Below, piece by piece: positions 15,646-63,381 of a stretch of DNA of 64,000 nt. A model generated the notes under the pieces. That model searched no databases. It was not told the DNA's origin and worked only from the letters and a program-made list of their open reading frames with translations. A program made the position numbers and the translations under genes. Within the stretch, counting starts at the first letter, position 1, and each line of letters begins with the position of its first letter. The stretch spans positions 11,628,842-11,692,841 of the forward strand of contig CAIIXF020000011.1 of assembly GCA_903813345.2 (NCBI GenBank), in the 5' to 3' direction. The DNA comes from Owenia fusiformis (taxonomy: Eukaryota; Annelida; Polychaeta; Sabellida; Oweniidae).

Positions 15646-15841
15646 TTGAACCTCTATCCTAGAGATGTGTCTTCCACACTAGACAATGCTTCTTCAGTAA
15701 AACAGATATCACCAGAATAACAACATCATATGCAGATGCGTATACAGGCGCTACAGGGATATGGTGCATATTGTAGTTACACTGTACCATCTAAAACCTC
15801 ACAGAAAGGACAGAAACATCTTTAGAGGAAGAGGAGTGCAT
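15646..15841 (-). other. Exon-like block, copy B first part (unproven)
   Basis: Minus-strand segment with acceptor-like TGTATGTACTTTCAG and donor-like GGTTCAA|GTAAGTAC. All frames contain stops. The implied intron to 15598 is 47 nt. If transcribed it would be a noncoding or dead transcript. Confidence 0.3.
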
Positions 15842-28480: not shown

Positions 28481-28616
28481 CAGATGGCAGCATTTATATA
28501 TTGTTTTAATTCAGAAATGTACATTGTACAAGGTATATTCCGACCAAATTTCAGGATGTTTAGACCAATATTTACAAAATACCAGATACCTTTACCTTAT
28601 TTATTGATCACCCTGT

Positions 28617-29280
28617 AAACTCTCTAATGTTTCTGTTGGTGTACTTAAAATGGTACTCACTGCAGATACCATATTTTTGTAATGATAAAGGTTTACTTCC
28701 AATAAATTGTTTCTGTTGATGTACTTCAGAATGGTACTCACTGCAAATACCATCTATATGTAATGATAAAGGTTTACTTCCAAAAAATTGTTTCTGTTGA
28801 TGTACTCCAGAATGGTACTCACTGCAAATACCATCTATATGTAATGATAAAGGTTTACTTCCAATAAATTGTTTCTGTTGATGTACTTCAGAATGGTACT
28901 CACTGCAAATACCATCTATATGTAATGATAAAGGTTTACTTCCAATAAATTGTTTCTGTTGATGTACTTCAGAATGGTACTCACTGCAAATACCATCTAT
29001 ATGTAATGATAAAGGTTTACTTCCAATAAATTGTTTCTGTTGATGTACTTCAGAATGGTACTCACTGCAAATACCATCTATATGTAATGATAAAGGTTTA
29101 CTTCCAATAAATTGTGTCTGTTGATGTACTTCAGAATGGTACTCACTGCAAATACCATCTATATGTAATGATAAAGGTTTACTTCCAATAAATTGTTTCT
29201 GTTGATGTACTTCAGAATGGCACTCACTGCAAATACCATCTATATGTAATGATAAAGGTTTACCTACAATTTAAATTGTT
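28617..29280. repeat. 81-bp tandem array, about eight copies
   Basis: Unit starts fall at 28681, 28762, 28843 and so on to 29248. Each begins AATGATAAAGGTTTACTTCC and contains TTGTTTCTGTTGATGTACTT. Copies in the middle are near identical, and those at the edges are diverged. The period is a multiple of three, but TAATGATAA in every unit gives stops, so it is not coding. Confidence 0.95.
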
Positions 29281-30903: not shown

Positions 30904-32313
30904 CTGAAGAGGAATGTTTTTTTACATACAATTGTAACAAAATCAATAAAAGTATACTTATCGTTTATATATATATTTATTATTCAACATCATGATTCTA
31001 CAATTTGTTAATTGCTCACTGAATTGTTTCTGTTTAATCATGTCATTATTACATTTATTATGGCTTCATTTAGAGAGAATGATTAATTTCTTAAAAACAT
31101 ATCATGACATCGTACACTTTCAGTTTTTAAATGTTTTACATTAACTCGGGCAATAGCATGCACTTTCCGTTTTCAAGCTTCTGATATTTTTTCTCTGAAA
31201 TCTAAGCTTTGAAAATACTCACTTCTTTTGTAAATCTTCCAAGACCTGACTGCCTGGGTGATCTTTCATGTAATTCTGGTAAGCTGACCAGGTTCTAACG
31301 TAGCCCACATACTCTGAGACAGTCCAGTGACGCTCTATACACAACGTATCTACCCTGGAATATATGAAGAGAAATGGATTTAATAAGGCTTCTCAAACCT
31401 TATAGTGTGTAACATGTAATATAATTTTATAAACTATTTTTTCTAAGTGATAATGTCAAATAGTTTGTGTCCGTTTCAATGTTGCTTCTACGTGATGCTT
31501 TATTGTATTATAAAAACCGACAAACATACTATAATCTATTTGGGAATATGTATTTTTCAACTGGATAAGCCCTTATGGTATCCTCACGTATTATGTACCT
31601 GATATATGGAAATGGCAGGTCTACATTTTTGTATTTTTCTTCGATGTATTTCCGCTGCGGATCCCAATAATCATGAAGTGCACCATTATAAAACTAAAAC
31701 AAAAACCATCTACAAAGTAATGCCTTAAACCGGATGTATAGAAATGTATCCGTTCACCAAAAACGTTTGGATTGCACCAAATAGCATCATAATTCAAAAA
31801 ATCTCAAAATTATGGATATAAAGTCTGCACTTTTGTCCATACCTGTTCATGTGGTACCATTGCAGCGTCTCTATTCAATATAGCATTACCATAACCGATC
31901 AATGCAAGGACGCCGTTGGGTTTTAAAATTCGCAGTGCCTCTCTATAAAATATCTTAGCGTCAAGCCAATGAAACGCCTGAGCACACGTTAGCAGGTCAA
32001 CAGACGAATCGGCCTGAAAGCTTAGGTCTTCACCAGCATGAACTTCGAACGTTATACTATTCTCTTTAATAGTGTTCTGTGCGTTTAAGATTTGCGCCTT
32101 GCTTACATCTGTCCCTATGACTGCTTTAAAATGAGGCGCAAGTGTTTGTGTGAATTGACCTGATCCACAACCTACGTCGATAGCAAGGTCTTGGACAAAG
32201 TGTGGTTTCTCTCTGCAAAACTTGAGAACTGTTTCCAGGACCGATGAGGGATACGAAGGTCGGTGTTGTGCATAAATCCTTGCATGCGAAGCCTCTTCGA
32301 AAAATCTTTTCAT
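30816..32313 (-). CDS. Class I SAM-dependent methyltransferase, four exons
   Basis: Predicted 261-aa cytosolic methyltransferase that uses S-adenosylmethionine; the substrate is unknown. Exons in transcription order: 32313-31843, 31693-31599, 31354-31223 and 30903-30816, all with GT-AG borders and matching phase. The fold is seen in motif I AIDVGCGSGQ (residues 44-53), an acidic residue after strand 2 (VIGTDVS, about 65-71), a QAFHWLDAK segment (112-120) and RILKPNG (128-134). The C-terminal half holds YWDPQRKY (about 166-173), HWTVSEYVGYVRTWSAYQNY (about 198-217) and a final WPIFILMG. This matches the UbiE/COQ5-like group of about 260-270 aa often annotated in animals as putative methyltransferase DDB_G0268948-like. 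The start ATG opens the MKRFFEEASHARIYAQ stretch usual for this group. AATAAA (minus) at 30617-30622 could serve polyadenylation. A MITE lies 135 bp upstream of the ATG. Confidence 0.9.
31223..31354 (-). CDS. Methyltransferase exon 3
   Basis: Acceptor TATTCCAG; codes VDTLCIERHWTVSEYVGYVR and on to EDLQK plus two bases. Donor AA|GTGAGT. Intron 2 is 244 nt. Confidence 0.87.
31599..31693 (-). CDS. Methyltransferase exon 2
   Basis: Acceptor TTGTTTTAG; codes FYNGALHDYWDPQRKYIEEK and on to PYI plus two bases of Arg. Donor CAG|GTACAT. Intron 1 is 149 nt. Confidence 0.88.
31843..32313 (-). CDS. Methyltransferase exon 1
   Basis: Codes residues 1-157 with the whole SAM-binding core. Donor HEQ|GTATGG; ends in phase 0. 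Confidence 0.88.
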
Positions 32314-32447
32314 TTCTGAATTTCAGTCTGGAAATATGATTGAAATATGATGAGATGGCTGTACTATTAATGACAAGTATTTATTTATAAATGAAAGTTC
32401 ATTTATGATGTCCTGGATTTGACAAAGTTCATTTCAGTTGGTTCCAG

Positions 32448-45260: not shown

Positions 45261-45266
45261 GCATAA

Positions 45267-45404
45267 TATATAGTGTATGGATGACTATAACACGCGACAC
45301 ACGGATACTGAGTTTTTCTTTTGGAATTATCCTACTCTAATAGCAAGCAATAGCTATCCAAGTTTAAAAAGGAATCGACGAATCGAACAAAACGAAAGGG
45401 AAAC
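45267..45404 (+). promoter_or_regulatory. Putative promoter and 5' leader of SLC5 first exon, copy 1
   Basis: TATATA at 45267-45272 is followed by the block TAATAGCAAGCAATAGCTAT and CCAAGTTTAAAAAGG, close before the ATG. The same block precedes the copies at 48226 and 50757. Confidence 0.5.
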
Positions 45405-45746
45405 ATGACTGACATGGTGACATTCCACTGGGCTGACTATTTAGTCTTCTCCGTAGTTCTACTAGCATCTGCCCTCATTGGGGTATACTACGGATGTACG
45501 GGCAAGAAACAATCCACCAGCGATGAATTTCTACTTGGGGACAGACAAATGCCTTTATTTCCCGTCAGTATGTCGATGGTTGCAACTTTCTTCTCGGCCG
45601 TTTCTGTTCTTGGCGCACCATCCGAGATATACAACTATGGGACTCTCTACTGGTTGTGGGTCATATCTTTTTGGATTGCACTCCCCATAACTGCGCATGT
45701 GTATTTGCCTATATACTATGACCTAAAGTTGACAAGTGCATATGAG
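45405..45746 (+). CDS. SLC5-type transporter first coding exon, copy 1 (alternative or orphan)
   Basis: Codes 114 residues beginning MTDMVTFHWADYLVFSVVLL, then a STSDEFLLGDRQMPLFPVSM segment, SAVSVLGAPSEIYNYGT and the end of the second to third membrane helix. The donor GAG|GTAAGAC is intact and in phase 0. It differs from the 50757 copy at only about seven residues, mostly conservative. No exon 2 follows before the next copies. It could splice over 9.1 kb to 54872 as an alternative first exon, or it may be an orphan left by duplication. The open frame without damage favours function or a recent origin. Confidence 0.75.
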
Positions 45747-45963
45747 GTAAGACAAAATGAATCAGATTCAAGATATCCATCGTGTCCCATATTCTCTTGC
45801 TCACACTCCTGCTTCACTGGAAGTATGGTTTGATAATATGACACATCTTTTTTTATTTCATATTATTTTAGCACTTAGATCTCTTTGTTCAATAAAAATG
45901 ATGATACTTGTATATCATGACCGCCACCAGATATATGCACAGGCCAAGGTGATCAATCCTCAC

Positions 45964-46385
45964 AAAGGAGGAGATAAAGTATCGCAATAGATTTCGGACA
46001 GTCATATATTGGATTTTGGCTATTTTCTGAGGATTGAAACAGGTGCAGCAGATGTTAGACCAATGCATTACCTCCAGGAAAAGGAAAATAATTTCGAGTT
46101 TGAGACAGGGAATATGCAAACAACCAACCCACATGTTTTTCTGAGATGTTTTCGTTTTTCAACCCCTTCCACCCCTGGATTTTTTAATTTTCTTGCATCA
46201 ATATGTTGTGTTTTGACACACAGTTCACCCCTTTAAAGGAATAAATGATTCTCACGGGGTTTTTAAAGATATCTATTATGGGTGACCAAAATTAGCTGAA
46301 AGCAATGCATTGCATGAGTTATCCCTATGGGAAAATAATATGGGAAATATTATTTTCCACTTTAGCTAAAGGGAATCACTTACTG
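45964..46385. mobile_element. Half copy of the 52414 foldback element
   Basis: Starts AAAGGAGGAG and follows the left arm of the 52414-53129 element (GGACAGTCATATATTGGATT, then ATGCATTACCTCCAGGAAAA and CATCAATATGTTG). It stops after the centre. Confidence 0.7.
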
Positions 46386-46728
46386 CATTAATAGAGATTT
46401 GGTCCAAGTTTGTTTTAAACGACACGGAAAATGATTTAAATGACATAACCTTATATATCAAAATTATTATTGTGGAAAACTTTTCACTGGATTCAAATAT
46501 GCTATTAAAAAGGAAGAAAAATTAGTTGTTAGAGGATAAAAGTGCAATCTCATAAAATCTCATGAAAACGAGAATTAGCGAGATTTCAAAGCTATATTTA
46601 AGCTTTTCTATTGGTCATATGGACAAACTACCACAAGTGCGCATACTGCAAGGATTTTACAATGACAATACTGCTTTTAGGGGAATCTAAACAGAAACAT
46701 CGAAAAAATGATAAAAGGTGTTTGAAAA

Positions 46729-46999
46729 CTTGGATATCTATTGCTTGCTATTAGACTAGGATAATTTTACAAGAAAAGTTAAGTAGACGCGTGTCTCTAC
46801 ATCCATCCATACACGTAATATTAAGTTTTTCAAATATTAAAGGTGATTTCAAGGTTATTTTCCTTTCCAGCCTTTAGTCTCATAATTAATATGAATATCT
46901 AGGTCTTATGCTAACCGATTTCTAAAAGAATATTTCAAATTTAAATACATTAAAAGGAAAGCCTAGAACATGATGAATATCATCATGACCATAGAGGAA
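46729..46999 (-). repeat. Inverted copy of the SLC5 upstream region
   Basis: Reverse complement of 47899-48170. It carries the leader block (AACTTGGATATCTATTGCTT) and about 220 bp of the sequence upstream of it, but no exon. With its partner it makes an inverted repeat with arms of about 270 bp and a 900-bp spacer. Confidence 0.85.
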
Positions 47000-47073
47000 C
47001 ATCAAAATTAAGGACAAACATCTAAACTATTGACAAATGAAAAATGTTGAATCCTTTTAAAGCGTAAAGGGTA

Positions 47074-47214
47074 ATGCCTGGGTCACATATGGTGCGATTC
47101 ATCGGCCGGCGCCCGGCCGATTGAGTATTTTTTCCAAACTGAATTCACTTTCGAATAAAACACTCAATCGACCGGGCGCCGGCCGATGAATCGGAGCAAA
47201 TGTGACGCAGGCAT
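47074..47214. mobile_element. 142-bp palindromic MITE, copy 3
   Basis: ATGCCTGGGTCACATATGGT at the left; GCGCCGGCCGATGAATCGGA and TGTGACGCAGGCAT at the right. Lies in the spacer of the 46729-48170 inverted repeat. Confidence 0.85.
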
Positions 47215-47692
47215 AACGCATATCAATTAGCAGATTCCGGAATAACACAAAATCAAAAATATGCAAATCAGGGTGTAAGTTGCACTTCATGTGCAGTACA
47301 AGGGTATATAATACAAGGGACCGTCTCAAAGGTATAACTAAAGCTTTTTATAAGTACTCAACTAGAAAGTCTTAATCACTATCACTACTTGAATATGTTT
47401 CGAGATTGATTATTACAGGATCAATTTCCTCAATAAGATAGATATTTTCTCTTACCCATCTCTAAGTAAATTGAATACAACTTGATTTGAAATTATTCCT
47501 GGGTATATGTACAATCAACATTAGTTGATTTGGGATTACATAATTGCATTGTTTATGAAAACCACAGTGGTCAATCCATGCATAAATCTATTTTATTGCG
47601 TTTGAGTCACGTAGTACGAATTAGCAAGAAAATGATTTCTATTTGGTCGTTTAACGTTATGAAAATAGAACGGTAATTGTAAATGCAGTAAT

Positions 47693-47834
47693 ATGCCTTG
47701 GTCACATTTGCTCCGATCCATCGGCCAGCGGCCGGCCAATTGAGTGTTTTGTTCAATATTGTATTCAATTTTGAACAAAATACTCAATCGGCCGGGCGCC
47801 GAAGTGAAAATCGGAGCAAATGTGACCAAGGCAT
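47693..47834. mobile_element. 142-bp palindromic MITE, copy 4
   Basis: ATGCCTTGGTCACATTTGCT at the left and AGCAAATGTGACCAAGGCAT at the right: perfect 20-bp ends. A further stray end (TGCCTTGGTCACAT) lies at about 47883. Confidence 0.88.
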
Positions 47835-48225
47835 TATTGAGTGAATGTGTATGTGTTAGTGAATAAGATCACTTCGGTGCCTATGCCTTGGTCACATGTT
47901 CATCTATGGTAATGGTGATATTAATCATGTTCTAAGCTTTCTTTTTAATGTATTTAAATTTGAATTATTCTTTTAAAAATCGGTAAGCCTAACACCTAGA
48001 TATTCATATTAATTATGAGACTTAAGGCTGGAAAGGAAAATAACCTTGAAATCACCTTAATATTTGATAAACTTAATATTACGTGTATGGATGGATGTAG
48101 AGACACGCGTCTACTTAACTTTTCTTGTAAAATTATCCTAGTCTAATAGCAAGCAATAGATATCCAAGTTTAAAAAGGGAATCGACACATTTTTCTCAAA
48201 TCGATAAGATATAAAGGAAAACACG

Positions 48226-48563
48226 ACTAACATACATTTATAGTAACTTTCCACTCGGCTGACTATTTAGTCTTCTCCTTAATTCTGCTAGCATCTGCCC
48301 TCATTGGGTTATACTACGGATGTACGGGCAAGAAACAATCCACCAGCAATGAATTTCTGCCTTTACTTCTTTGTTTCCCGTCTGTATGTCGATGGTTGCG
48401 ACTTTCTTCTCGGTCGTTTCTGTTCTTGGCGCACCATCCGAGATTTACAACTATCGGACTCTCCTACTAGTTGAGTATCATCTCATTTTGGATTGCACTC
48501 CCCATTACTGCGCATGTGTATTTGCCAATACACTATGACCTAAAGTTGACAAGCGCATATGAG
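48226..48563 (+). pseudogene. Broken copy of the SLC5 first exon, copy 2
   Basis: Same exon as 45405 and 50757, but disabled. The start codon and following bases are changed (ACGACTAACATAC in place of ATGACTGACATGG). About 20 bp are missing after GAATTTCTGC. A small shift brings TAGTTGAGT into the frame near 48465. The donor GAG|GTAAGAC is unharmed. The TATATA seen before the other copies is also lost (AATATTACG). Decay is limited, so the duplication is not very old. Confidence 0.9.
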
Positions 48564-49065
48564 GTAAGACAAAATGAATCAGATTCAAGATATCCATCGT
48601 GTCCCATATTCTCTTGATCACACTCCTGCTTCACTGGAAATATGGTTTGATAATGACACATCGATCTTCTTCTTTTATTTCATATTTTTTTTGAGATCTC
48701 ATTTTTGCACTAAGATTTATTTGTTCAATAAAAGTTATATGATATATTATGATTGCCATCAGAGATATACACAGGCCAAGGTGATCAATCCTCACACATT
48801 TTACGACCCTTATTCAGGTAAACAAGAGCTGAAAACGAGATGTCATGTCGATGAATTTTCCTTAATAAAACACCTACCTGAGACAAAATTCTGGGGAGAT
48901 CAATCCCAGAATAAAACTCAATGGTACAGAGGTTAAGGCCAATGATTGGCTTTTACCTGTGTACCCTTGAGTGTTACTCCGGAATAGCACCTTAATACTT
49001 ATCAGTGAGCAACATCCAAAAACGAGCGTTCGATTTGCTAATTGATATGCATTAACCTGCTTCCT

Positions 49066-49318
49066 GGTCAACTCAACCCCAAGTCAGCTCAACCCAAGTC
49101 AACTCAACCCTTAGTTAAATCGACCCCACGTCATCTCAACCCTTAGTCAACTTGACCCCAAGTCATCTCAACCCTTGATCAACTCAACCATTAGTCAACT
49201 CGAGTTGAGTTGAGTTGACCAAGGGTTGTGATGACTTGGGGTCTAGTTGACTAAGGGTTGAGCTGCCTTGGGGTCGACTTGACTAAGGGTTGAGTTGACT
49301 TGGGGTTGAGTTGATCAG
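49066..49318. repeat. Minisatellite that is itself a 250-bp palindrome
   Basis: The left half repeats CAACTCAACCC(C/T)AAGTC- or TTAGTCAACT-type words; the right half repeats their reverse complement (GACTAAGGGTTGAGTTGACT). The turn lies near 49200 at AACTCGAGTTGAGTT. Confidence 0.85.
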
Positions 49319-49446
49319 TTACCGATTTATCAATGCCTCAACTAGGCTGGAATATGGGAGCTTTTCTCATTCGCAAATTGCTTTAATTTATTGATGATTT
49401 ACAAAAGCCAGTGGATCTTGGAATAATTAGTTCTCTGACCCTACTA

Positions 49447-50010
49447 TCACACCAAACTAGTTCTCACTACGTTCTCGAAAACGGGCTTAAACTGTGCACG
49501 AACGGATTTGACGTACTAAGAACCCACTAAGAACCGTTTGGGATCTGATTACAAACTTCATGAAACTACTAGAACGAGTAGGTCCTCCAGCACTTAGAGC
49601 ATGCTCAACATTTTCTGGTGATCATCAAAACGTTGCCGAATCGGTTTTAAACTGTGTGCGAACTGAATGAACGTAGCTACAACGTTCTACGGTCTGTTTA
49701 CGAACTTCATGGACTTTCCCGGACGGGGTATGTGATTTAGAATTTTGAATCGATTCAAAATTCGATGGCGACCATACCGTTCTGTAATCAGGTCATGATG
49801 ACCTTCTAGACTAAGGGACGGTTTATACTACGTTGCACACCGACGTGGTGCGACCTGAACGAACTTCGAACGTGATGGACGTATTGAAGACTGTTTATGA
49901 ACGAAGTAGCTAATTATTTTAGACATATATCCCGACCGCAGCCAGATCGAGCCCGTTTTACGACATTTTCGTAGGACTGGCAAGAACGGGTAAGAACTAG
50001 TTTGGTGTGA
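49447..50010. mobile_element. MITE with TCACACCAAACTAGTTCT ends
   Basis: The left end TCACACCAAACTAGTTCT faces AGAACTAGTTTGGTGTGA at 49993-50010. The interior carries ACTAGAACG/CGTTCT and GAACTTC words in both orientations. No coding capacity. Confidence 0.7.
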
Positions 50011-50610
50011 ATGGGGGGGGGGTGACATTTCTAAGATTTACATCTTCATTATGATTTCTATGTTGGTCAAAAGTTCTTTGGAGATAAGAAGGGATTATTT
50101 TATTTCTCACTTTATACATGATATTTAGTGTTTTTCATTTCTCCTAGTCAAATGATCATTCCAGTTCAGAGATTTAAATAATTTGATTTTTGAAGTTCCT
50201 TGAATACACCCATTTACTAGTAGGGTATGCAGCTCTAGTGGCTTTGTTCAAGTTTTGTTAGATCATATTTAGTTGCTTTTTCGAGTAAAATACTTCCACA
50301 TTCAAGTTCAGGAAGTACAAAGTAGGAGTACATTTCTTCAAGATGTTTGGATCCAACGTTGTTTTTAAAGTTTTAAAAGAATTCGACATTGTATTACATT
50401 TGTCAATAGTTCCGTGTTTATGTGAGCTTAAAGTGTTCATCTATATATGGTCGTGAATCATGATATAGTTTATCACGTTCTTAGCTTTTTCAATGTATTT
50501 AATACCGAGTGAGTATTTTAAGCATAACACCTAGATATTTATATTCATTGTTTCCCATAAGATTGGAAAGGTAAATAACATTTAAATCAACTTGATATTT
50601 GATAAACTTA

Positions 50611-50756
50611 GTATATATTGTATGGATTGATTAGGAGACACGCAGCAACTAGACTTCTCTTTTGGAATCATCCTACTCTATTAGCAAGCAATAACTATCC
50701 AAGTTTAAGAAGGAATCGACGCATTTTTCTCAAATTGATTAGATATATAGGAAAAC
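50611..50756 (+). promoter_or_regulatory. Putative promoter and 5' leader of SLC5 first exon, copy 3
   Basis: TATATAT at 50612-50618, then the shared block TTAGCAAGCAATAACTATCC and AAGTTTAAGAAGGAATCGAC, then the ATG in the context GAAAACATGA. Confidence 0.5.
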
Positions 50757-51098
50757 ATGACTGACATGGTAACATTCCACTGGGCTGACTATTTAGTCTT
50801 CGCCTTGGTTCTACTAGCATCTGCCCTCATTGGGTTATACTACGGATGTACGGGCAAGAAACAATCCACAAGCGATGAATTTCTACTTGGAGACAGAAAG
50901 ATGCCTTTGTTTCCCGTCAGTATGTCGATGGTTGCGACTTTCTTCTCGGCCGTTTCTGTTCTTGGCGCACCATCCGAGATATACAACTATGGGACTCTCT
51001 ACTGGTTGTGGGCCATATCTTTTTGGATTGCACTCCCCATAACTGCGCATGTGTATCTACCAATATTATATGACCTAAAATTGACAAGCGCATTTGAG
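50757..51098 (+). CDS. SLC5 exon 1 (copy 3)
   Basis: Residues 1-114; the first membrane helices and the GDRKMPLFPVS loop. Donor GAG|GTAAGAC, phase 0. The nearest intact first exon to exon 2. Confidence 0.88.
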
Positions 51099-54000
51099 GT
51101 AAGACATGATGAATCCGATTAAAGACATTCATTGTGTCCCATGTTTTCTTGCTCCCACTCCTGTTTCACTGGAAACATCTGATATGAAGAGTTGAAACTG
51201 TCATTAAGAGCGATGGTCATCATCTTTTTTAACTAAAGTCTCTTTCTTCAATCATTTTCTTTTAATTGAATAAAACATGAAATAATAGATTTTACAAGGC
51301 AAAGATAAAATATTAAACCACGTTCACACCACCTCCATCCATTCGAACATTCCCAACAATCATACCCAACAGTTCTGGTATATACATAAAAACATAGTAT
51401 TTTCGAATTGAGTCTCGTCCAAGTTGGGGTGTACCTCATTACATTGTTTTGCACATATACAATATTTGATTGTTAGTGAAAGCCTATTTAGCAAAATGTT
51501 TTCATTATTTACAGATCTTCCGAACACAATATCATGGACATTAAAATCAAAATTTAAATTAAATCGTTTCTTTAAATTAGCTTTCAAGAAAATCTGAACC
51601 CGCCTACACTCCCAAAACATGTGCTTTAAAGTGTCTCTTAGTGGACAGTAACTACATTTAGCATCCTGTTCAATTCCTATCTGCGTTAAGCATTTACGAA
51701 GCTGTAGTGTTCTGGGAACATGCGCTCTTTGATAGGCAAAATAAGAGTAAAACAACTAAGTAGGTTAGTTGTTGGCATGATGACTTAATTTCATTATAAA
51801 TCACATAATGTTGTGTAACAATACTTTTTGCCGATAGGGCTAACAACCAAGGGTGGTGGTTTTTGTGGTACATATACCATGAAAAATCGTAAATTGGAGT
51901 TGTCGAATTTTATTTTGTTTCGTGCAACTATAAGTCATTCTATATAAAGTAGTCTGTTCTTTTTAACTCACAATCATGTTTATCTTTATACAGTGCTTCC
52001 AAATATTTGTTTCTATTTATTATTTTTTGAATTGACTTTACTGTTAAACCATTCAATGACACTGGTTTTTCGCCAAGTGCTAAATGCACAAGATCCATCT
52101 GTAGGCTTGGTTCAAAGACAGAAGTTAAGTCTCGCTTCAATAAGTGTTTCCACTCATTTGGCGCAGCTGATATTATAGCATACTCATCAATAAAATTGAT
52201 TTGTACGTTGTATTTTGCCTTAAAATCAAAATACATGTACTGTAAAAAGTTTCCCTGGTCGTTTCTAAGGAGGTCATTTACGTAAATGACCATAAGATGT
52301 TTACTTATTACCTCTTTGTTATTAATTAGGACCAATCTATTATTCCAGAGTAGTTCACTTTTAACTTCGTCAGAACTAGTTTTTGGAGCTAGTATATTCC
52401 TTATATCAGAGTAAAGGAGGAGGGAAATTAGCGCAACAGATTTTGTACAGTCATATGTTGGATTTTGGCCATTTTCTGAGGATTTAAACAATTTCATATG
52501 TTAGGCCAATGCATTACCTCCAGGAAAATCACTTCTAGAGATGATAAAATAATCTCGACTTTGAGACAGGTTAGATGCAAACAACCCACCCACATGATTT
52601 TTCTGAAATGTTTTCCTATTTTTCGACCCCTTCCATCCCTGCTTTTTTAATTTTTCGTGCATCAATATGTTGCATTTTGACACATAGTTAATCACTTTAA
52701 AGGAATAAGTGATTCCTTCAGGGGTTTTAAAGATACCCATTATGGGTGACCAAACTTAGCTGAAAGCAATGATTTTTCCTATGGGAAAATAACATGGGAA
52801 ATATTGTTTTCCACTTTATCTAAATGGAATCATTTATTCCTTTTAAGGGATCAACTGTGTGTCAAAACGCAACATATTGATGCAAGAAAAATTAAAAAAG
52901 CAGGGATGGAAGGGGTTGAAAATCAGGAAAACATTTCAGAAAAAACATGTGGGTGGGTTGTTTGCATCTACCCTGTCTCAAAGTCAAAATTATTTTATCA
53001 TCTCTAGAAGTGATTTTCCTGGAGGTAAAACATTCGCCTAACATATGCACCTGTTTAAATCCCCAGGAAATGGCCGAAATCAAACATATGACTGTCCAAA
53101 ATCTGTTGCGCTAACTTCCCTCCTCCTTTGTAAAATAGTTGAGTAAAATTCTGTCACGTCGTGAGCTATTGTTTTAATATCCAAATTACATTGTACCAGG
53201 TATAAAGAACTTAATTCCCCCAAGTGGTTTAAAGTACAATTTTGGAATATGTTTCCAATGTCACGGTTCAGTTTATAGCCACATCAGTTAAAGTGCTTTT
53301 ATCATAAATAAAAGTTACAAGATATATTATCATCGTCATGAGATATTATATACGTACACAGGCCAAGGTGACACAAGCCTCACAAATATTACGACCCTGG
53401 ACGACAAGAGCTGAAAGCGAGATGTCATGTTATTTCGATGAGTTAAATACATCATCGTTTATCAAAGTTTGATCTCATCAGTTGAAATTCTTTTCATGTA
53501 TTCAATCAAATTCCTGATTTTTATGACCACTGAAAAACACAGAATCCTGTGGACCAGTATGCCATTACAATGAAATTATGACTGCATTAATAAGATGGAG
53601 TTTGAGTATTTTTGAGCCTTCTCTAGGCCATCATTCTAGCAATTTGTCAGTATAGCTACCACGAGCCAACACTGCGAATGGCTTACAATTTAATGCTGCT
53701 TTCAGGAAAATCTAAACACAAAACACAAAATGATTAAGCGGTTTGAATTTGAATTCAATAATTGTTTTGATCATTGCATTGGAATCAGACTATTGATATT
53801 AAGAAGCATTTTCATTTAGGTAAATATTCGGGCTTCTATGCAGTGTATATTAAAGTGTCTAGAAAAGGGGTTGTTTATTTGATCTCTAGTATTCTACACG
53901 GTAACCTTTTTGTATGTACGTCATGGCAGGCATTCTAATGGCACGACAACCATAACTTACTACATTCATCATAATATTTATCTGAGCATTTCATTCAAAT

Positions 54001-57000
54001 TTATGACTATTCAGAGAGTTGAATAGACGTAATCCTGTTTTTGCAAATGTGATCAAAATCAAAAAGGCCAAAACTAGTCATAAAGCTGGTGTGATGATTT
54101 GGAAATTAAAAAACATTATATTATGCCATACAGTGTCGCGAAACTGACGGACAATTGACCGAGAGAAAATCTTGATAGCTAACCCGAAACAATTTAATAT
54201 ATAGGCAATCCCGATTAAGTACCTGAAACGCTGCTGTCTCATTATTTAGCTTTTGAGATTAAGCATATTTTATAAAATTTCATAAAATTCGTGCAAATTA
54301 ACTCTAATATTGTTTTTTGTTTCTGAGTCAATCTGGCTGAAATTTTAACTCAGTATCTCTACAGTATTCATAATAAAAAGGTCCTTGAGGAAAAAACTTA
54401 GTAACAAATTAGATATACGAGAATAAGAGTTAATATAATAACCATTGAAAAACTACATTTTATTTTTTTCATTTCTCAAAATAATAATTCGAAATCAGAT
54501 ATGTGCATGGCAAAAATCAAATGATATATCAAAAATATTAATTATAACCAATGTGTTGAAAGACACAAATATTAGACAAATTGTACATGCATAGTAAAAT
54601 TATTTCATTTTATCATTTTATGGGTAACACATAATTACCATCCTTTTGGGATTTGGACCCAAACATATTTTTCATATAGGTTGGTAAATATCAATGTGCT
54701 GCAATCCGGGGCCATATCTTAACCGCAAACAAAACTTTGAACGAAAATAAATATAAATTTTCTTTCTCCTTTTCCCAACAAGATCAGATTTTAAAATAGT
54801 TTTTAACTAAGAAAGTCTGGAATCTGGTGTCCTGAATTTCACCCATCTATCTATGTGTTCTTCATTTTCAGTATCTTGATAGACGTTTCAATAAGGTTAT
54901 ACGCATCATGGGAATCATTACATACACGTTCCACATTGTAAGTATTCGATGGATAATGTAATGAGTTCACTAATTCTAGTCAAAACACCGGCTAGCTTCT
55001 CCAAATGCTGGTTTCGCATTATTACATTAATTCAAAAGAGGAATTATGAATTCACATGTTGTTCATGTTACTCGTACATATTTTTGAAGTTAATGATTTA
55101 AATATTCAATATTCATGTAAGTGTGTGGAGAGACATCATTATATTTTACCTGAGAGGCAAAAAGTGTCAAGAGTCGAGACCCTATCCTCCTCTTCGAGGA
55201 AAATAATATTGATTTTTGGACTCTCAATTGTTAGAGCTACAGTACTAAATACGTATTGATTTGTTTACTTTCAGCTCATATATATGTCAGTTATATTATA
55301 TGGCCCATCTGTAGCATTTGAGTTAGGTAGGTATTCACTTTGATGTTCTTTATGCTTTCAAATTTCCTTATTGCAGAAGAACCAATCACGATATCTGTAA
55401 ACTAGATTTCCTTATTTCATTTACTAAGAAATTGATTGGACTGCAATGCATTTGTTGTCGTAAATAGACGACATGCTCGTGCATCATGCGAATCCTACCA
55501 CATATTTCATGTTTTGATTGAGAAGGTGTGCAGTTTGTAAATAAATAATTTTCTTTATTTTCAGTAAGCAAGTTGCCATACTGGGCAACCGTCCTTCTCG
55601 GGGGATTTGTATGTCTCTTCTACACGTCATTCGTAAGTTGATGTATAGAGTGCCTTGTCCAAATATTTTAACAAATATATGATCATGCTTATCATCACGG
55701 ATCAAAGTATAGCATTAAAACCAGTGGCATGGTTTGTAGAATGTTTTATTTAAAATTGCCTCTTATAGCCTCTCAGAAATCAGAATACCACAACGTAATG
55801 TCATCTTAATTTACAAGGTGTCAGTTGTTCCTATCTCAACGTACTTAAACATGCAACTCCAAATTGTCGTCTTCAGGGAGGAATGAAGGCAGTGCTGTGG
55901 GCTGATACACTGCAAGTGGCAGTCATTCTAATAGGTATCCTGGCACTTATTATACAAGGATGCATCAACCTGGGTGGAGTAGGAGAAGCTTTCAGAATCG
56001 CTAATGAAAATAGAAGAATCGAATTCTTCAAGTAAGTATTTTGATTTACTAATGGTGGGAGAACGATTCGTACACATACTAGGTATATACCCTGACATAA
56101 ATCTATGTCGACCAACAGCTATGGAGTTGTTTACAATAGTGATACGGTACGATAATAATATTCTTAGTGTTTTTGGCAATAAAGAATAGTCCGTGAAATA
56201 TTGTGTTTTAGTTGGAATCCAGACCCTACGGAGCGCCATACAACATTGACTGTAATTATAGGAGGAACGTTTACAGTGTTAGTAATATATGCAGGAAATC
56301 AACAAATGATACAGAGATATCTTACGGTGGATACAAAACGAAGGGCGCAGATGTAAGTAGATCAAAAAACTAGTTAACACAAGGGATTCATGCAGGTTTT
56401 GAACCCAGGAGCCTCAAAGATCGAGTTATACAGGGTAATACAAAATGCCACCACTTATTTTGGAATAACGTTCTCAATATTGAAGGAATCTTTGATTTGA
56501 TTTTTTGTGCATATAGAGTGTTTTATAGAAGAAAGATTGGTAGGCTTGCATTGCATCAACATCTTGGAAATTATGAGATATCTAACTTTCCGCGGAGGCG
56601 TGCTCTGACAAAAAATCATTCAAAAATGTAAATTGGAAAATCTGTCTTTTTAAAATTTACCAAGTACGCGAGTCAGTTCATCAAAATTGACAAAATTATT
56701 TAAGAAAAATGTTTAGATGTGACATACGTATTAATGATAATGTATGTAAAAGCAATCCAGAAATGACTCAAATAATGGCTAAGACACACATGCCAATTTT
56801 AGAAAATTGTGTTTTTGAACTTTTTTGACAATTTCATCGAGAGCATCTCTGGACGGAAAACTTGATATACATGTAGCTACGTCTCAAAGTTGTTGATGGC
56901 ACATAAGTAAAACAAACAAGCATTCATCCATTACACTCTTATACATGTAAAAGATCACGAAGATTCTGTCGTTATTGAGAAATATATTCCAAAATTAGTG

Positions 57001-60000
57001 AGTGGCATTTTTTGTGTCACTCTGTATTAACAATTTGTCGAGTAAATAGACTGTTTAAAGTTATTATTTCACGTCTGAAAGAATGATGTGTACATTATTT
57101 TATTTTGGATGGTTTCATATTTTTCTATAATCTTACAAAATCTCACTGATGCTTTATTTACTGTATTGTATACACATGACACATTATGCATGACTTGAAC
57201 CAATAAATAGTCAATGGTTACCAAAAGTTAATCATTATTAACACTGTTTTGTTACGACAATTAAATATGCAAGCATTTACTTAATTTGTTTAACAACAGT
57301 TAAACATGTATTTTCAGAGCGGTTTATGCTAATATGCCACTTACCTTTATTGCACAGTCGCTTTTCTGTCTAACAGGGGTCGTATTATTTGCTGCGTACG
57401 CAACTTGTGATCCTTTAACACAAGAGCAAATCAAGAACCGTGACCAGGTAAGAAATGGACCAAATAGATTACAGTCATTACAAGTAATTTAACTCCAGTT
57501 ATGTGAAATACTTTGCCATTTATAGTTTTTTATAGAAGAAAAGAGTTAACATGATTATGTGAGAAAGTGATTTGCTGAGTTTGTTATTTCAGATGGTTAC
57601 ATATATGGTCATGGACATTCTTGGTCACCTCAAGGGCATGGGGGGACTGTTCATGGCCTCTGTATTTGCGGCTGCAATGAGGTATAAATCTAAAATTATA
57701 ATCTATTGTCTTAACTATAGCCTAAGCTATATAAGGGTACCTAAGCTATATACCCCACAACCATCTAAGCCATAGATATACGTTATATAGAGCCAAGTAC
57801 ACTAAAATATACCATAAACATTAAGTGTTGGCCTATAACCTGAGCTATAGCCTCCGTACTACATCCTACAACCCAAAATAACAGCCTACATGTATAACAT
57901 ATTTAAAATATAGTTTTCTCAGACCCCTCAATATCATTCCAATAGAATGACAGAGCGAATTTCTTGCTATTTTAAGATTTCATCATTCTTGGATCCACAG
58001 ACTTTACTATTCCTTGGAATGGTCAGAAGCTTTAAACAAAAGAGGGACTCTGAAAATCAGAATGAGATCCCATAGTTATCAACATGTTTGAATATCTCTT
58101 TCTTTTAGACCAATTGCTCTTAGGTTAGCCATTTTTCAAATAAATGCCAACATTATTACAGTACGATGTCCTCTGGCCAAAATGCCCTAGCAGCGGTGTA
58201 TCTGGAAGATGTAGCAAAACCAATCTACGAATCAGTCCACAAAAGACCCATGCCAGCAAAGTTTGCAGTGGGATTGTCAAAGGCATTTGGTACGTTCATC
58301 ACAACAACTACTAATGTATGCACAATATTGACTGTTTGCTTGGTTAATTTTTGATTCTTAATTTATAAATTCTTATGTTAATTATATTTCCAAAACAAAT
58401 TCGTTTTACAGGTAAGCTAAACAAGAGTACATGAAAATGAATTCCAGGATACCAAAATCTTTAATGTCTTTTATTCAGGATCAAAGTATTGATCTTAACT
58501 GTACTCTGTCTTGCTCCTCAAGTTGTGCTTTTCAGTTGCAAATCATTGTTATTGATATAGAGGAAAGACTGTCTTTAATAGTGAACACCTCTCCCTAGTT
58601 AACACTCCTCCGCATATACTCTTTACTGTATGAAATTTCGCTCTCTGTAGTGAACAATTGCAACTACTAACAATGAACGTTTATCTGGGCGAAAAAAAGT
58701 TCAATATACATTGGTTTTACTGTATTGTTCTTTTAGTGGATGTCAGTCCGTTCTATACAATTCAAAGTTTGTAGTTGTTTCAGTTTTTCTATTCATTCAG
58801 CTGTGTTCTTTGGAATTGCTACAATGGCTTTGGCGTTTGTAATCGACCAACTGGGAGGTGAGATATTGACACTGGCATTGAAGATCTTTGGCATCATTGG
58901 CGGACCTCTACTTGGTCTATTCACCCTTGGGATCCTTTTTCCATGTGCAAATGCATGGGTAAGTACTCCTTAAGTAAGGCTAGCTGTCAGCTACTAACAC
59001 GTAATACCTAGTCTGTCATACATGCACTTCTCATTAGTACACCAGAACGGGGCCTTATTCCATTACTCGTGACTGTTTTATTATATTTAAGCATATGAAA
59101 ATGGCTACAGTTTATTACACCAAATAATGTTTAAATTAGATCCAAACCCCAGTCTAGAATATAAAATTCTATAAAATAGTGTTCTCAAAACATCAGGTTC
59201 TATGTGTTGATAATTATAACAAGTGCTCCAGATGTTTCCAAATTCTGCCCATAGGGAGCAGGTGCTGGTCTTATTGCAAGTCTTGCGATTGAATTTTGGA
59301 TTAACCTCGGATTCATTCTGAATGGGTTAACAACTCCAACGTTACCAACTCGTACGGATGGATGTCCTAATGCCACATTTACCTCAAATGCAACATTTAC
59401 AACAATGGTTTCAACAACAACAACAATGGTGTATGAAACGACACAAGCAGTCGAACCTACTGAAGAGTTAGTATTTGCTTCTCATATAATTCACAGAGCT
59501 TATATTATTTCTTCATTATAGTACATCAAAAATGTACAAACAAAATAAGAAATAACTGTAGTTTTTGAGAGTTTGAAGAACCTGAATGACAGTAAAGACA
59601 AAAGCATGTTAGTTAGTATAACTGTATAACTGTATTCTAAATCAATGAAACACATAAACTAAATAACTGAATAATATATTTTAACAGGCCTGCTATATTC
59701 TACATGTATAAGATCTCATATATGTGGTTCACTGTTATTGCCCTTCTGGTTACCTTTATTGTTGGACTTCCTGTCAGCTGGATAGCTGCAAAGATAACAG
59801 GTAATTAGATTGCACCTAAAATTGTTATAGCTGGAATTAAAGATAACAGGTAAAAACAGGACGAAAAGGTGCCTCGTTTTAGATATCCGTAAAAATCTAC
59901 CAGAGTTTGTCTCAATAGTGTACTTATGATATTACACTTATGGAACTTTATGTTTTGTAAGAATTTGTTCAAGACTTCTGGGGAAACCCTCGTATATTTT

Positions 60001-61117
60001 TAATTTAAACAATCTAGATATTATACAGGGCGGGCCAAAACAAACGTCCACATTTTTGTTTTGCTACGAAATAGATGGGTATTTGTCTTGAAATAACATT
60101 TCGATTACCACAAGGGTCAAGATCATGATTTACCAATTGCCGAATTCAGAATGCTAAGAACTGGCAAGACAGATATAACCCCTTTGTCAGCTTCAAATGA
60201 AAGCAAATTGAGTCACTTGGTTTTGTTAATATAGCCTAAATAATGTAGTGAAGTCTGTTTTCAAGACATTTTGTAGATAATGCCTATTTAAGGCTAAAAT
60301 TATCATAAAATGGTCAATAATGATGTTGTACAATATATCACTTAACTGACATTTTATGACAGGCAATACAATTATAGACACCAGAATTAATGAAAATGTA
60401 TTCCATATCATGGGTTATGGCAAAATTTCGACCGAGTTTCTTTACAAAACGTGTTTGAAGCAAATATCAATGCATCTAGCTTTATAACGGACTACAATAC
60501 ATAAAACTAGGCTCCATGATTATCTTAGAGCTACAAAATGATTTACAAACAATAAAATTAAACTCAACTCCAATATTTTTTCTTCCTATATACGTAAAAG
60601 TCTAAAGGTGTTGATTAAGCAATGCAATATTATGCAATAAGGTCAAAACATAGAGCAAAATCTTGTTTTTGACTTTTACTACCTCATGTTGCGGGGATCA
60701 CCATGGAGTCACCAATAGCCATTCATATTTTATGAATCATACATCATTTTGTTTGACATTGAATTATCTTTCTAATGATATATATTTCTTGTATATATCT
60801 AACATATCAGGAAAGATATTGCAAAAATAAAAATGTGGACGTTTTTTGGCGAACCCAGTACACTGTCATATACGACGTTCGAGAGTAACAAAGAATGGAT
60901 TCAATGATTTTACATTATATCATAGTAATTACAATCGTTTTCTATGTTTCACTATTTTTGTATTCATGAATGTTCAGGTCGGTATAAAACGGAAGACGTA
61001 GATCCTTGCCTAGTGTGGCCAATATGTGACAAGATCTGTTGCTGCCTACCAGAGATGTTCAGAGGGTGCTGCAGAGTGCCCGAAAGAAAGGTATACTGTA
61101 GTACAACCAGAAAATAA
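50757..61117 (+). CDS. SLC5-family sodium-coupled solute transporter, 13 exons
   Basis: Predicted 597-aa membrane transporter that would move a small organic substrate (probably a monocarboxylate) with sodium across the plasma membrane. Exons: 50757-51098, 54872-54937, 55275-55326, 55565-55632, 55877-56031, 56212-56352, 57318-57447, 57593-57681, 58162-58289, 58801-58958, 59255-59466, 59688-59800, 60978-61117. All have GT-AG borders and phases that agree. Family marks: FLLGDRKMPLFPVSMSM (about 43-59), SAVSVLGAPSEIYNYGT, GGMKAVLWADTLQV (from 177), STMSSGQNALAAVYLEDVAK, IGGPLLGLFTLGILFP, and a Thr-rich loop with two NAT sequons before the last helix. The tail is Cys-rich (DKICCCLPEMFRGCC). Length fits SLC5A8/A12 (about 610 aa). 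SLC5A6-like is the main alternative. The last exon may instead splice on at 61091. Confidence 0.9.
51300..52412 (-). pseudogene. 5'-truncated LINE relic in SLC5 intron 1
   Basis: The minus strand codes the C-terminal part of a Tx1/L1-like LINE polyprotein. First comes LWNNRLVLINNKEVISKHLM, a NFLQYMYFDFKAKYNVQINF-to-IISAAPNEWK segment, then KIRQLQFTIFHGIC. Then comes the zinc-knuckle tail, CSYCPLRDTLKHMFWECRRV. Stops and shifts lie between 51756 and 51940. The endonuclease and catalytic reverse-transcriptase parts are missing. It abuts the foldback element at 52414. Confidence 0.75.
52414..53129. mobile_element. Long foldback element in SLC5 intron 1
   Basis: AAAGGAGGAGGGAAATTAGC at the left returns inverted at the right. 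Arms of about 290 bp enclose a short centre near 52780. Includes GCGCAACAGATTTTGTACAG and GCATTACCTCCAGG in both orientations. A half copy lies at 45964-46385, downstream of exon copy 1. Confidence 0.85.
53130..54871. other. Rest of SLC5 intron 1
   Basis: Sequence resuming the duplicated intron (ACACAGGCCAAGGTGA at about 53357, as at about 45940 and 48772), then AT-rich DNA without recognised features up to the acceptor TTCATTTTCAG. Confidence 0.5.
54872..54937 (+). CDS. SLC5 exon 2
   Basis: Codes YLDRRFNKVIRIMGIITYTF and HI; phase 0 at both ends. Acceptor TTCATTTTCAG, donor ATT|GTAAGT. Confidence 0.88.
55275..55326 (+). CDS. SLC5 exon 3
   Basis: Codes LIYMSVILYGPSVAFEL plus one base of Val. 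Acceptor TTACTTTCAG, donor G|GTAGGT. Confidence 0.85.
55565..55632 (+). CDS. SLC5 exon 4
   Basis: Codes (V)SKLPYWATVLLGGFVCLFYT and SF. Donor TTC|GTAAGT. Confidence 0.88.
55877..56031 (+). CDS. SLC5 exon 5
   Basis: Codes GGMKAVLWADTLQVAVILIG and onward to RRIEFF. The first residues are the family's most diagnostic stretch. Donor AA|GTAAGT. Confidence 0.9.
56212..56352 (+). CDS. SLC5 exon 6
   Basis: Codes (N)WNPDPTERHTTLTVIIGG, then YAGNQQMIQRYLTVDTKRRA. The QxxxQRYLTxxxxxxA motif is shared across SLC5. Donor AT|GTAAGT. Confidence 0.9.
56431..57024. mobile_element. Mariner-type MITE in SLC5 intron 6
   Basis: CAGGGTAATACAAAATGCCA at the left; the right end reads inward as CAGAGTGACACAAAAAATGC. 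TA on both sides (56429-56430, 57025-57026). Inverted arms continue through TTTTGGAATA and TTCTCAATA. No coding capacity. Confidence 0.75.
57318..57447 (+). CDS. SLC5 exon 7
   Basis: Codes (I)AVYANMPLTFIAQSLFCLTG and onward to DPLTQEQIKNRDQ. Donor CAG|GTAAGA. Confidence 0.9.
57593..57681 (+). CDS. SLC5 exon 8
   Basis: Codes MVTYMVMDILGHLKGMGGLF and MASVFAAAM plus two bases of Ser. Donor AG|GTATAA. Confidence 0.88.
57690..58161. other. SLC5 intron 8
   Basis: Holds a loose run of CTAAGCTATATA-like words at 57715-57800. Otherwise nothing. Confidence 0.5.
58162..58289 (+). CDS. SLC5 exon 9
   Basis: Codes (S)TMSSGQNALAAVYLEDVAKP and onward to VGLSKAF plus one base of Gly. The STxSSxxNALAAV region contributes to the sodium site in the family. 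Donor G|GTACGT. Confidence 0.9.
58801..58958 (+). CDS. SLC5 exon 10
   Basis: Codes AVFFGIATMALAFVIDQLGG, then KIFGIIGGPLLGLFTLGILF and PCANAW. Acceptor CTATTCATTCAG, donor TGG|GTAAGT. Confidence 0.9.
59255..59466 (+). CDS. SLC5 exon 11
   Basis: Codes GAGAGLIASLAIEFWINLGF, then a Thr-rich extracellular loop with two NAT glycosylation sequons and TTMVSTTTTMVYETTQ. Donor GA|GTTAGT is weaker than the others but keeps phase. Confidence 0.87.
59688..59800 (+). CDS. SLC5 exon 12
   Basis: Codes PAIFYMYKISYMWFTVIALL and VTFIVGLPVSWIAAKIT: the last membrane helix. Donor G|GTAATT. Confidence 0.9.
60026..60858. mobile_element. Mariner-type MITE in SLC5 intron 12
   Basis: CAGGGCGGGCCAAAACAAAC at the left; the right end reads inward as CTGGGTTCGCCAAAAAACGT. 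TA flanks both sides (60024-60025, 60859-60860). ACGTCCACATTTTT is present in both arms. No transposase. Confidence 0.78.
60978..61117 (+). CDS. SLC5 exon 13 (probable last)
   Basis: Codes GRYKTEDVDPCLVWPICDKI, then CCCLPEMFRGCCRVPERK and, if not spliced further, nine more residues to TAA at 61115-61117. The cysteine cluster directly after the last helix suggests palmitoylation (inference). GTATAC at 61091 is a possible but weak donor to an unseen exon. Confidence 0.82.
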
Positions 61118-61889: not shown

Positions 61890-63381
61890 ATATTTTAGTA
61901 AATGTTAACGTTTTTTAGTCAAAGTTTTCTAAAAACACATTTTTTCTTTTTATTATTGGGAATGTTGTGCTGAGATATGTTCGGAATGAACCAGTGCTTG
62001 AAAATTTTCTGGGTGCATGCCCCCCCCCCCCCTCCCGATCCCCCTAGATTGCGCTTCGCATGCGGCGCGCTTCACGCATGACCCATCCATACCCAAAAGT
62101 GGCCCCCTCCCTTGACAAATCCTTCTGACGCCCCTGCTACATGATATGACAGTACTGGATATGAACTAGTACCAACATAAGATTACCACTGCTTGAGATA
62201 CTAGTTTCTCATATATGACTAGGCTCTTTACGCCATGCAAGATATTGCCATCTTTCATCCTAAAAAGTCACACGTGTAAGATGAGATTTACTTGTGACAT
62301 CACTGGTCTTTGAACATCAACAACATAGCAACAAATACACCATTGCTAAGAGTCTATGCTCATTCTACAAAACTAAGCTGTGACTTCATAACAATGGAGC
62401 TTTGTTGCCACGCGTATCTATGTATTTTCTACAATATTGTTATGACGTCATAACAATTGAAAGATGAAGTTCCATTAATCTGAAGCTATTTTTCACCCAG
62501 TTTTGTCATGAAGACATGAAAATATGGCATAATACGGAGTCATATGAGAAAAACTTTCTTGTACTCGTACCTGTCCAAAATCGTCCATTCTTGACTCGCT
62601 TATCTCATTAGTGCAAATATAGTGGTCTACATATATATTTTAGTAAATGTTAACGTTTTTTAGTCAAAGTTTTCTAAAAACACATTTTTTCTTTTTATTA
62701 TTGGGAATGTTGTGCTGAGATATGTTCGGAATGAACCAGTGCTTGAAAATTTTCTGGGGGCATGCCCCCCCCCCCCTCCCGATCCCCCTAGATTGCGCTT
62801 CGCATGCGGCGCGCTTCACGCATGACCCATCCATACCCAAAAGTGGCCCCCTCCCTTGACAAATCCTTCTGACGCCCCTGCTACATGATATGACAGTACT
62901 GGATATGAACTAGTACCAACATAAGATTACCACTGCTTGAGATACTAGTTTCTCATATATGACTAGGCTCTTTACGCCATGCAAGATATTGCCATCTTTC
63001 ATCCTAAAAAGTCACACGTGTAAGATGAGATTTACTTGTGACATCACTGGTCTTTGAACATCAACAACATAGCAACAAATACACCATTGCTAAGAGTATC
63101 TATGCTCATTCTACAAAACTAAGCTGTGACTTCATAACAATGGAGCTTTGTTGCCACGCGTATCTATGTATTTTCTACAATATTGTTATGACGTCATAAC
63201 AATTGAAAGATGAAGTTCCATTAATCTGAAGCTATTTTTCACCCAGTTTTGTCATGAAGACATGAAAATATGGCATAATACGGAGTCATATGAGAAAAAC
63301 TTTCTTGTACTCGTACCTGTCCAAAATCGTCCATTCTTGACTCGCTTATCTCATTAGTGCAAATATAGTGGTCTACATATA
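61890..63381. repeat. Near-identical tandem duplication, about 745 bp per copy
   Basis: Copy 1 runs from about 61890 to 62634 and copy 2 from about 62635 to 63381. The copies differ only by a few changes: C-run length, GGGTG against GGGGG before it, and GAGTCTATG against GAGTATCTATG. Each holds a GTAGCC-type tail region (GACGCCCCTGCTACATGA) and the 20-bp palindrome TTGTTATGACGTCATAACAA (62437-62456 and 63183-63202). No gene is recognised inside. Confidence 0.93.

Follow-up and report, generated by a model that had tools for sequence, protein, structure and literature searches.

In a 64,000-nucleotide stretch of the genome of the annelid Owenia fusiformis (contig CAIIXF020000011.1; hereafter the window), we identified a single SLC5-type sodium symporter gene whose first coding exon is present in three tandem copies, called A, B and C here. 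The three copies share a single set of downstream exons. A and C end in equal phase and have been under selection since they split, while B has decayed. We consider it probable that A and C are two working alternative first exons with separate promoters and that B is dead. We further infer that A is transcribed and spliced over C to exon 2, and that the two exons may differ in where or when they are expressed.

The outer copies each begin with an ATG, run through 114 stop-free codons and end in GAG/gtaaga. Between them, 20 nucleotides and exactly 7 of the 114 residues differ (94% protein identity), and both are in phase 0 with an equal donor, much as a sequence-only reading of this DNA had described them (open, about seven residue differences, the same phase). 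With the A residue given first, the changes are S16A, V17L, V27L, Q48K, V86A, Y104L and Y113F. The middle copy had been described as lacking a start and a frame, and this is borne out: B has ACG at the ATG position (48223-48225), an 8-base insertion, a 10-base deletion and a 1-base insertion that each shift the frame, and a TAG at codon 83. The exon, donor and upstream region had been placed at 45405, 48226 and 50757; all three copies are present, except that B starts 3 bases earlier, at 48223. Homology among the three extends from about -141 upstream to about +150 in the intron. A DNA search of the whole assembly with the C copy hit three places, which are A, B and C. Chance similarity is ruled out, as the two places besides C match it at 81% over 720 bases and at 87% over 559.

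Exons 2-13 (54872-61117) occur once in the window plus the 9659 bases 3' of it, which upholds the earlier claim of a single downstream set. The first eleven of these exons are preceded by AG and followed by GT with agreeing phases, and either A or C joined to exons 2-13 yields one uninterrupted reading frame. With exon C, the protein is 597 amino acids long and reads through to the stop in exon 13. Searching the assembly with exons 5-6 gave 27 matches, of which the window's own two stand at 91-98%, with match ends running into intron; the best other match reaches 68%. An independent downstream set for A was looked for across the assembly, and nothing beyond 68% identity turned up, although assembly gaps could hide one.

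The encoded protein belongs to the SSF/SLC5 symporters of the SLC5A5/6/8/12 clade, nearest to SMVT and SMCT1, with predicted sodium coupling. The SSF domain PF00474 spans most of its length (130 bits against a cut-off of 22.8, profile positions 1-404 of 406). Among solved structures, the top matches to the full protein are SMVT (E 1.3e-125) and SMCT1 (E 2e-122), followed by NIS structures (E 9.1e-102 and 3.2e-101), whereas SGLT1 and SGLT2 structures match far more weakly (E 6.5e-9 to 6.9e-6).

A comparison of synonymous and nonsynonymous change between A and C, which the sequence-only reading had proposed, favors function. By the Nei-Gojobori method, the exons have 77.8 silent and 264.2 replacing sites carrying 12 and 8 changes, so that synonymous divergence (dS) is 0.173, nonsynonymous divergence (dN) is 0.031 and their ratio is 0.18 (Fisher p 2.4e-4). 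The aligned flanks of A and C differ at 31 of 137 sites on the 5' side and 40 of 141 in the intron, that is, at 23-28%. Had A evolved neutrally after the split, beside a C under full constraint, A alone should have gathered about 23 replacing changes; the two exons together show 8 (Poisson p 3e-4 at the silent rate, 3e-8 at that of the 5' flank and 3e-12 at that of the intron flank). Gene conversion as the sole cause of the likeness between the exons is disfavored, with dS on the order of the flanks and dN at 0.031. Silent divergence is somewhat under flank divergence, and some exchange between A and C may have occurred.

The decayed copy appears to serve as a built-in neutral control. Its private changes are 8 silent and 18 replacing, distributed 9:7:10 over codon positions in a neutral-like pattern. 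Private changes in A comprise 5 silent and 2 replacing, plus one at codon 48, where B is gapped; those in C comprise 5 silent and 5 replacing, the two in codon 104 being counted singly. In a neutral simulation, 8 changes left at most 3 altered codons and no stop with p 0.020, 0.031 and 0.046 (kappa 1, 2 and 4), in a test that was picked after the counts were known, includes codon 48 despite the gap in B and excludes indels. The identities of A and C to seven paralogous first exons are nearly the same (A/C, in %: 68/68, 69/68, 62/63, 67/66, 65/63, 63/64 and 57/57). At residue 104, the tyrosine seen in all 6 paralogues that have a letter at this position is kept in A but not in C. Because dN/dS against C is low, the private changes of A are mostly silent, B contrasts with it and A and C are equally close to the paralogues, A appears to have been under selection for most of its time as a duplicate.

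The rest of the assembly provides a background for this arrangement. A PF00474 search was too weak for this clade, with C as the only one of the three copies among the matches listed. A search with the first exon listed 38 matches; four are from the window, as B appears twice beside A and C. In the nearest clade, at 57-61% identity, seven first exons are free of stops, six of them intact and one frameshifted, and all seven have an exon-5 match of their own 2.9-23.7 kb downstream on the same strand. Because of this pairing, two intact first exons on one downstream set appear peculiar to this locus within the nearest clade; the pairing covered these seven, a decayed first exon on C10 and an array on contig C468. 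The first exons of the C468 array are 98-100% identical to the query and lie at 15764, 24734 and 66335, with one exon 6 in all (44568) and an exon-12-like piece between the first two first exons. This array (L013, C468:15700-25699) may be a tandem gene that broke or a further case of surplus first exons. The frameshifted one of the seven (L008, C10:29505000-29505700) changes frame near residue 102. The decayed paralogous first exon (L009, C10:29476500-29477300; at 29476731) is broken, with TAG and TAA, and has no exon-5 match before the next first exon among the matches listed.

The extent of the duplicated unit can be read from intron 1. Because the likeness of unit A to intron 1 reaches 53747 and ends within the intron, short of exon 2 (54872), the duplicated unit consists of the promoter, exon 1 and part of intron 1. 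Unit B has a weak match to the intron at 54419-54502 (65%, E 0.001). The history of B itself is composite. Its intron flank differs from that of A at 11 of 141 sites, and its 5' flank is about equidistant from A (26 of 137) and C (28 of 148). Intron sites group A and B against C 35 times, with 6 and 4 for the other groupings, while the 5' flank favors none (15, 10 and 13). Because the 3' side of B is near A and its 5' side is about equally far from A and C, B is a mosaic, which suggests sequence exchange between copies.

Inverted repeats surround the copies. Intron 1 holds a foldback element (52413-53129; 717 bp, 84% self-complementary). The palindrome between A and B is 1456 bp long and 72.5% self-complementary, over an aligned length of 1498 with 42 gaps. 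Its left arm carries the B upstream block in inverted form and matches B at 95% over 277 bases, C at 72% and a short piece of A at 78%. Smaller foldbacks lie within it at 47071-47217 and 47693-47834, and a further palindrome (49084-49314; 231 bp, 87% self-complementary) lies between B and C.

Several observations weigh against two working first exons. The selection signal reveals past constraint, and the A-private part of it alone reaches p 0.02-0.05 in the post hoc, indel-free test described above. The seven differences are mild, so they bring no obvious gain. In the C468 array, two first exons precede one exon 6, and surplus first exons may sometimes be debris. In its upstream block, A lacks 11 bases in a gap and carries 4 inserted ones when compared with B and C. 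(Within that block, A has no private substitution from -91 to -19; this was noticed post hoc, coincides with the 11-base gap and is not used as evidence.) A TATA-like motif, found at aligned positions in A (-138) and C (-145) and lost in B, speaks for two working first exons, though weakly: the background of such motifs on this strand is 0.19 per 100 bp, and B (48210) and C (50744) have more of them shortly ahead of the start. The main rival history is that A was formerly functional and lost its use recently, or is simply a still-open duplicate, with C alone used now. In its favor, B shows that copies here die, and with about 8 private exon changes in A the chance of meeting no stop is 0.69-0.75. 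However, the private changes of A stand at 5 silent to 2-3 replacing, A is no farther from the paralogues than C, and its start, frame, donor and TATA-like site are all retained. We regard a relic A as unlikely, though it carries real weight; the functional option is better supported, through selection rather than expression. The sequence-only reading had left a choice between alternative first exons and a recent duplication with an orphan exon. Alternative exons fit best, "recent" does not suit flanks that differ by 23-28%, and "orphan" is disfavored by the dN/dS of 0.18 and the contrast with B.

Other origins for the copies fare worse. A might be the leftover of a whole duplicated gene that later lost exons 2-13, its constraint dating from that time. 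Tandem paralogues of the family are common in this genome, and the likeness of unit A reaches deep into intron 1 (70%, at 53656-53747), as does that of B, weakly. Yet a search of the stretch from A to C at E up to 20 turned up no trace of exons 2-13, and the A-private changes still look constrained, making this origin distinctly improbable. It is very unlikely that one promoter and one shared non-coding leader exon precede A and C, which would then be mutually exclusive second exons. In favor of this, all three copies conserve a pyrimidine-rich tract that closes with TAG, located 61 (A), 73 (B) and 72 (C) bases ahead of the start codon or the place corresponding to it, but it scores 1.2, 2.9 and 1.9 against 4.4-16.2 for the gene's 12 real acceptors, from which the score was derived, and the conserved block extends farther upstream, up to the TATA-like site. 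Because the acceptor-like site scores below every real acceptor, first exons with their own starts seem likelier than cassette exons behind a leader. Were A and C both spliced in at this site, a stop would follow after 7 codons of the C leader, so their joint inclusion gives no long protein. The left end of the palindrome also invites a more elaborate scheme, in which the inverted promoter block at 46721-47068, facing exon A, drives antisense transcription that chooses A or C in a UGT1- or protocadherin-style locus; we give this speculation very little credence. Finally, allelic or duplicated haplotype copies set in tandem by mistake are conceivable in an assembly of 525 contigs, but divergence among the copies is 19-23% upstream and, in the intron, ranges from 8% (A-B) to 30% (B-C); they also carry unlike insertions and lie in a window without N. 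Differences as large as those in the flanks are unusual for haplotypes, and such an artefact is almost certainly not the explanation.

The promoter core, exon 1 and part of intron 1 were tandemly duplicated upstream of the gene. If A and C are indeed alternative first exons, each would have its own transcription start. With a donor and no good acceptor, each would be spliced directly to exon 2 at 54872. The outcome would be two 597-residue proteins with 7 differences within the first 114 residues. The earlier expectation of transporters differing in their first helices is thus literally true, except that the seven changes are mild. Because they are mild and none falls in residues 49-85, a benefit in regulation seems likelier than new substrates. 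Residues 49-85 presumably include, as in a LeuT-type fold, the helix with sodium-site residues.

With tandem homologous intact first exons, one downstream set and an equal phase and donor, the locus may be viewed as a small-scale case of the organization of UGT1, GCNT2 and the clustered protocadherins. The UGT1 and GCNT2 clusters show birth and death of variable exons, pseudo-exons included (PMC1885805; PMC3325998), a likeness to which B, as a dead copy, would correspond. UGT1 has about a dozen variable exons encoding the substrate-recognition half, whereas the two live exons here, at 94% protein identity, encode the start of a membrane transporter. In the clustered protocadherins, too, each variable first exon is joined to a constant set, and neighbouring exons undergo gene conversion (PMC1885805); the mosaic B suggests such neighbour exchange here. 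Those clusters have more than a dozen variable exons each and a nervous-system role, and nothing of such scale is seen at this locus. The variable/constant organization of the clusters studied is called vertebrate-specific in that paper (PMC1885805), and the variable-first-exon loci we found in print are vertebrate clusters. For SLC5A6 (SMVT) and SLC5A8 (SMCT1), no duplicated coding first exon came up among the papers listed, which is no proof of absence; nor did these include a report of tandem coding first exons in an SLC5 gene. A two-exon case that keeps its dead sibling beside it would illustrate how loci of this kind originate, through duplication of a promoter and exon 1, selection on some copies and decay of others. 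Additionally, it is a caution for gene annotation, which may retain only the nearest first exon.

Features of the symporter locus, in window coordinates
Feature	Position	Strand	Basis
First coding exon, copy A; intact, 114 codons, phase 0, donor gtaaga	45405..45746	+	translation; dN/dS against C 0.18
First exon, copy B; pseudogenised, ACG start, +8/-10/+1 indels, TAG, donor kept	48223..48563	+	alignment
First coding exon, copy C; intact, closest to downstream exons	50757..51098	+	translation
Upstream block common to copies, unit A; TATA-like TATATAG at 45267	45264..45404	+	homologous to 50609-50756
Upstream block common to copies, unit C; TATA-like TATATAT at 50612	50609..50756	+	alignment, motif scan
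Unit A tail resembling intron 1 (70% to 53656-53747)	46628..46726	+	DNA comparison
Partial copy of the foldback element in unit A tail	45964..46398	.	about 80% to 52413-52851
Large imperfect palindrome between A and B; outer arms repeat the B upstream region in inverted and direct orientation	46721..48176	.
Intron 1 stretch without counterpart in units A and B, save the foldback piece in A	51253..53285 (borders approximate)	.
Exon 2	54872..54937	+	exon joining
Exon 3	55275..55326	+	exon joining
Exon 4	55565..55632	+	exon joining
Exon 5	55877..56031	+	exon joining, assembly search
Exon 6	56212..56352	+	exon joining, assembly search
Exon 7	57318..57447	+	exon joining
Exon 8	57593..57681	+	exon joining
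Exon 9	58162..58289	+	exon joining
Exon 10	58801..58958	+	exon joining
Exon 11	59255..59466	+	exon joining
Exon 12	59688..59800	+	exon joining
Exon 13; stop TAA at 61115-61117	60978..61117	+	exon joining

Elsewhere in the window, a direct duplication of ~750 bp, recognized by eye, lies 3' of the last exon at about 61890-63380. On the minus strand, an open frame at 31810-32322 encodes a methyltransferase domain (PF08241, 5.9e-20), and another at 28608-29270 consists of eight repeats of roughly 27 residues each (SKPLSLHIDGICSEYHSEVHQQKQFIG).

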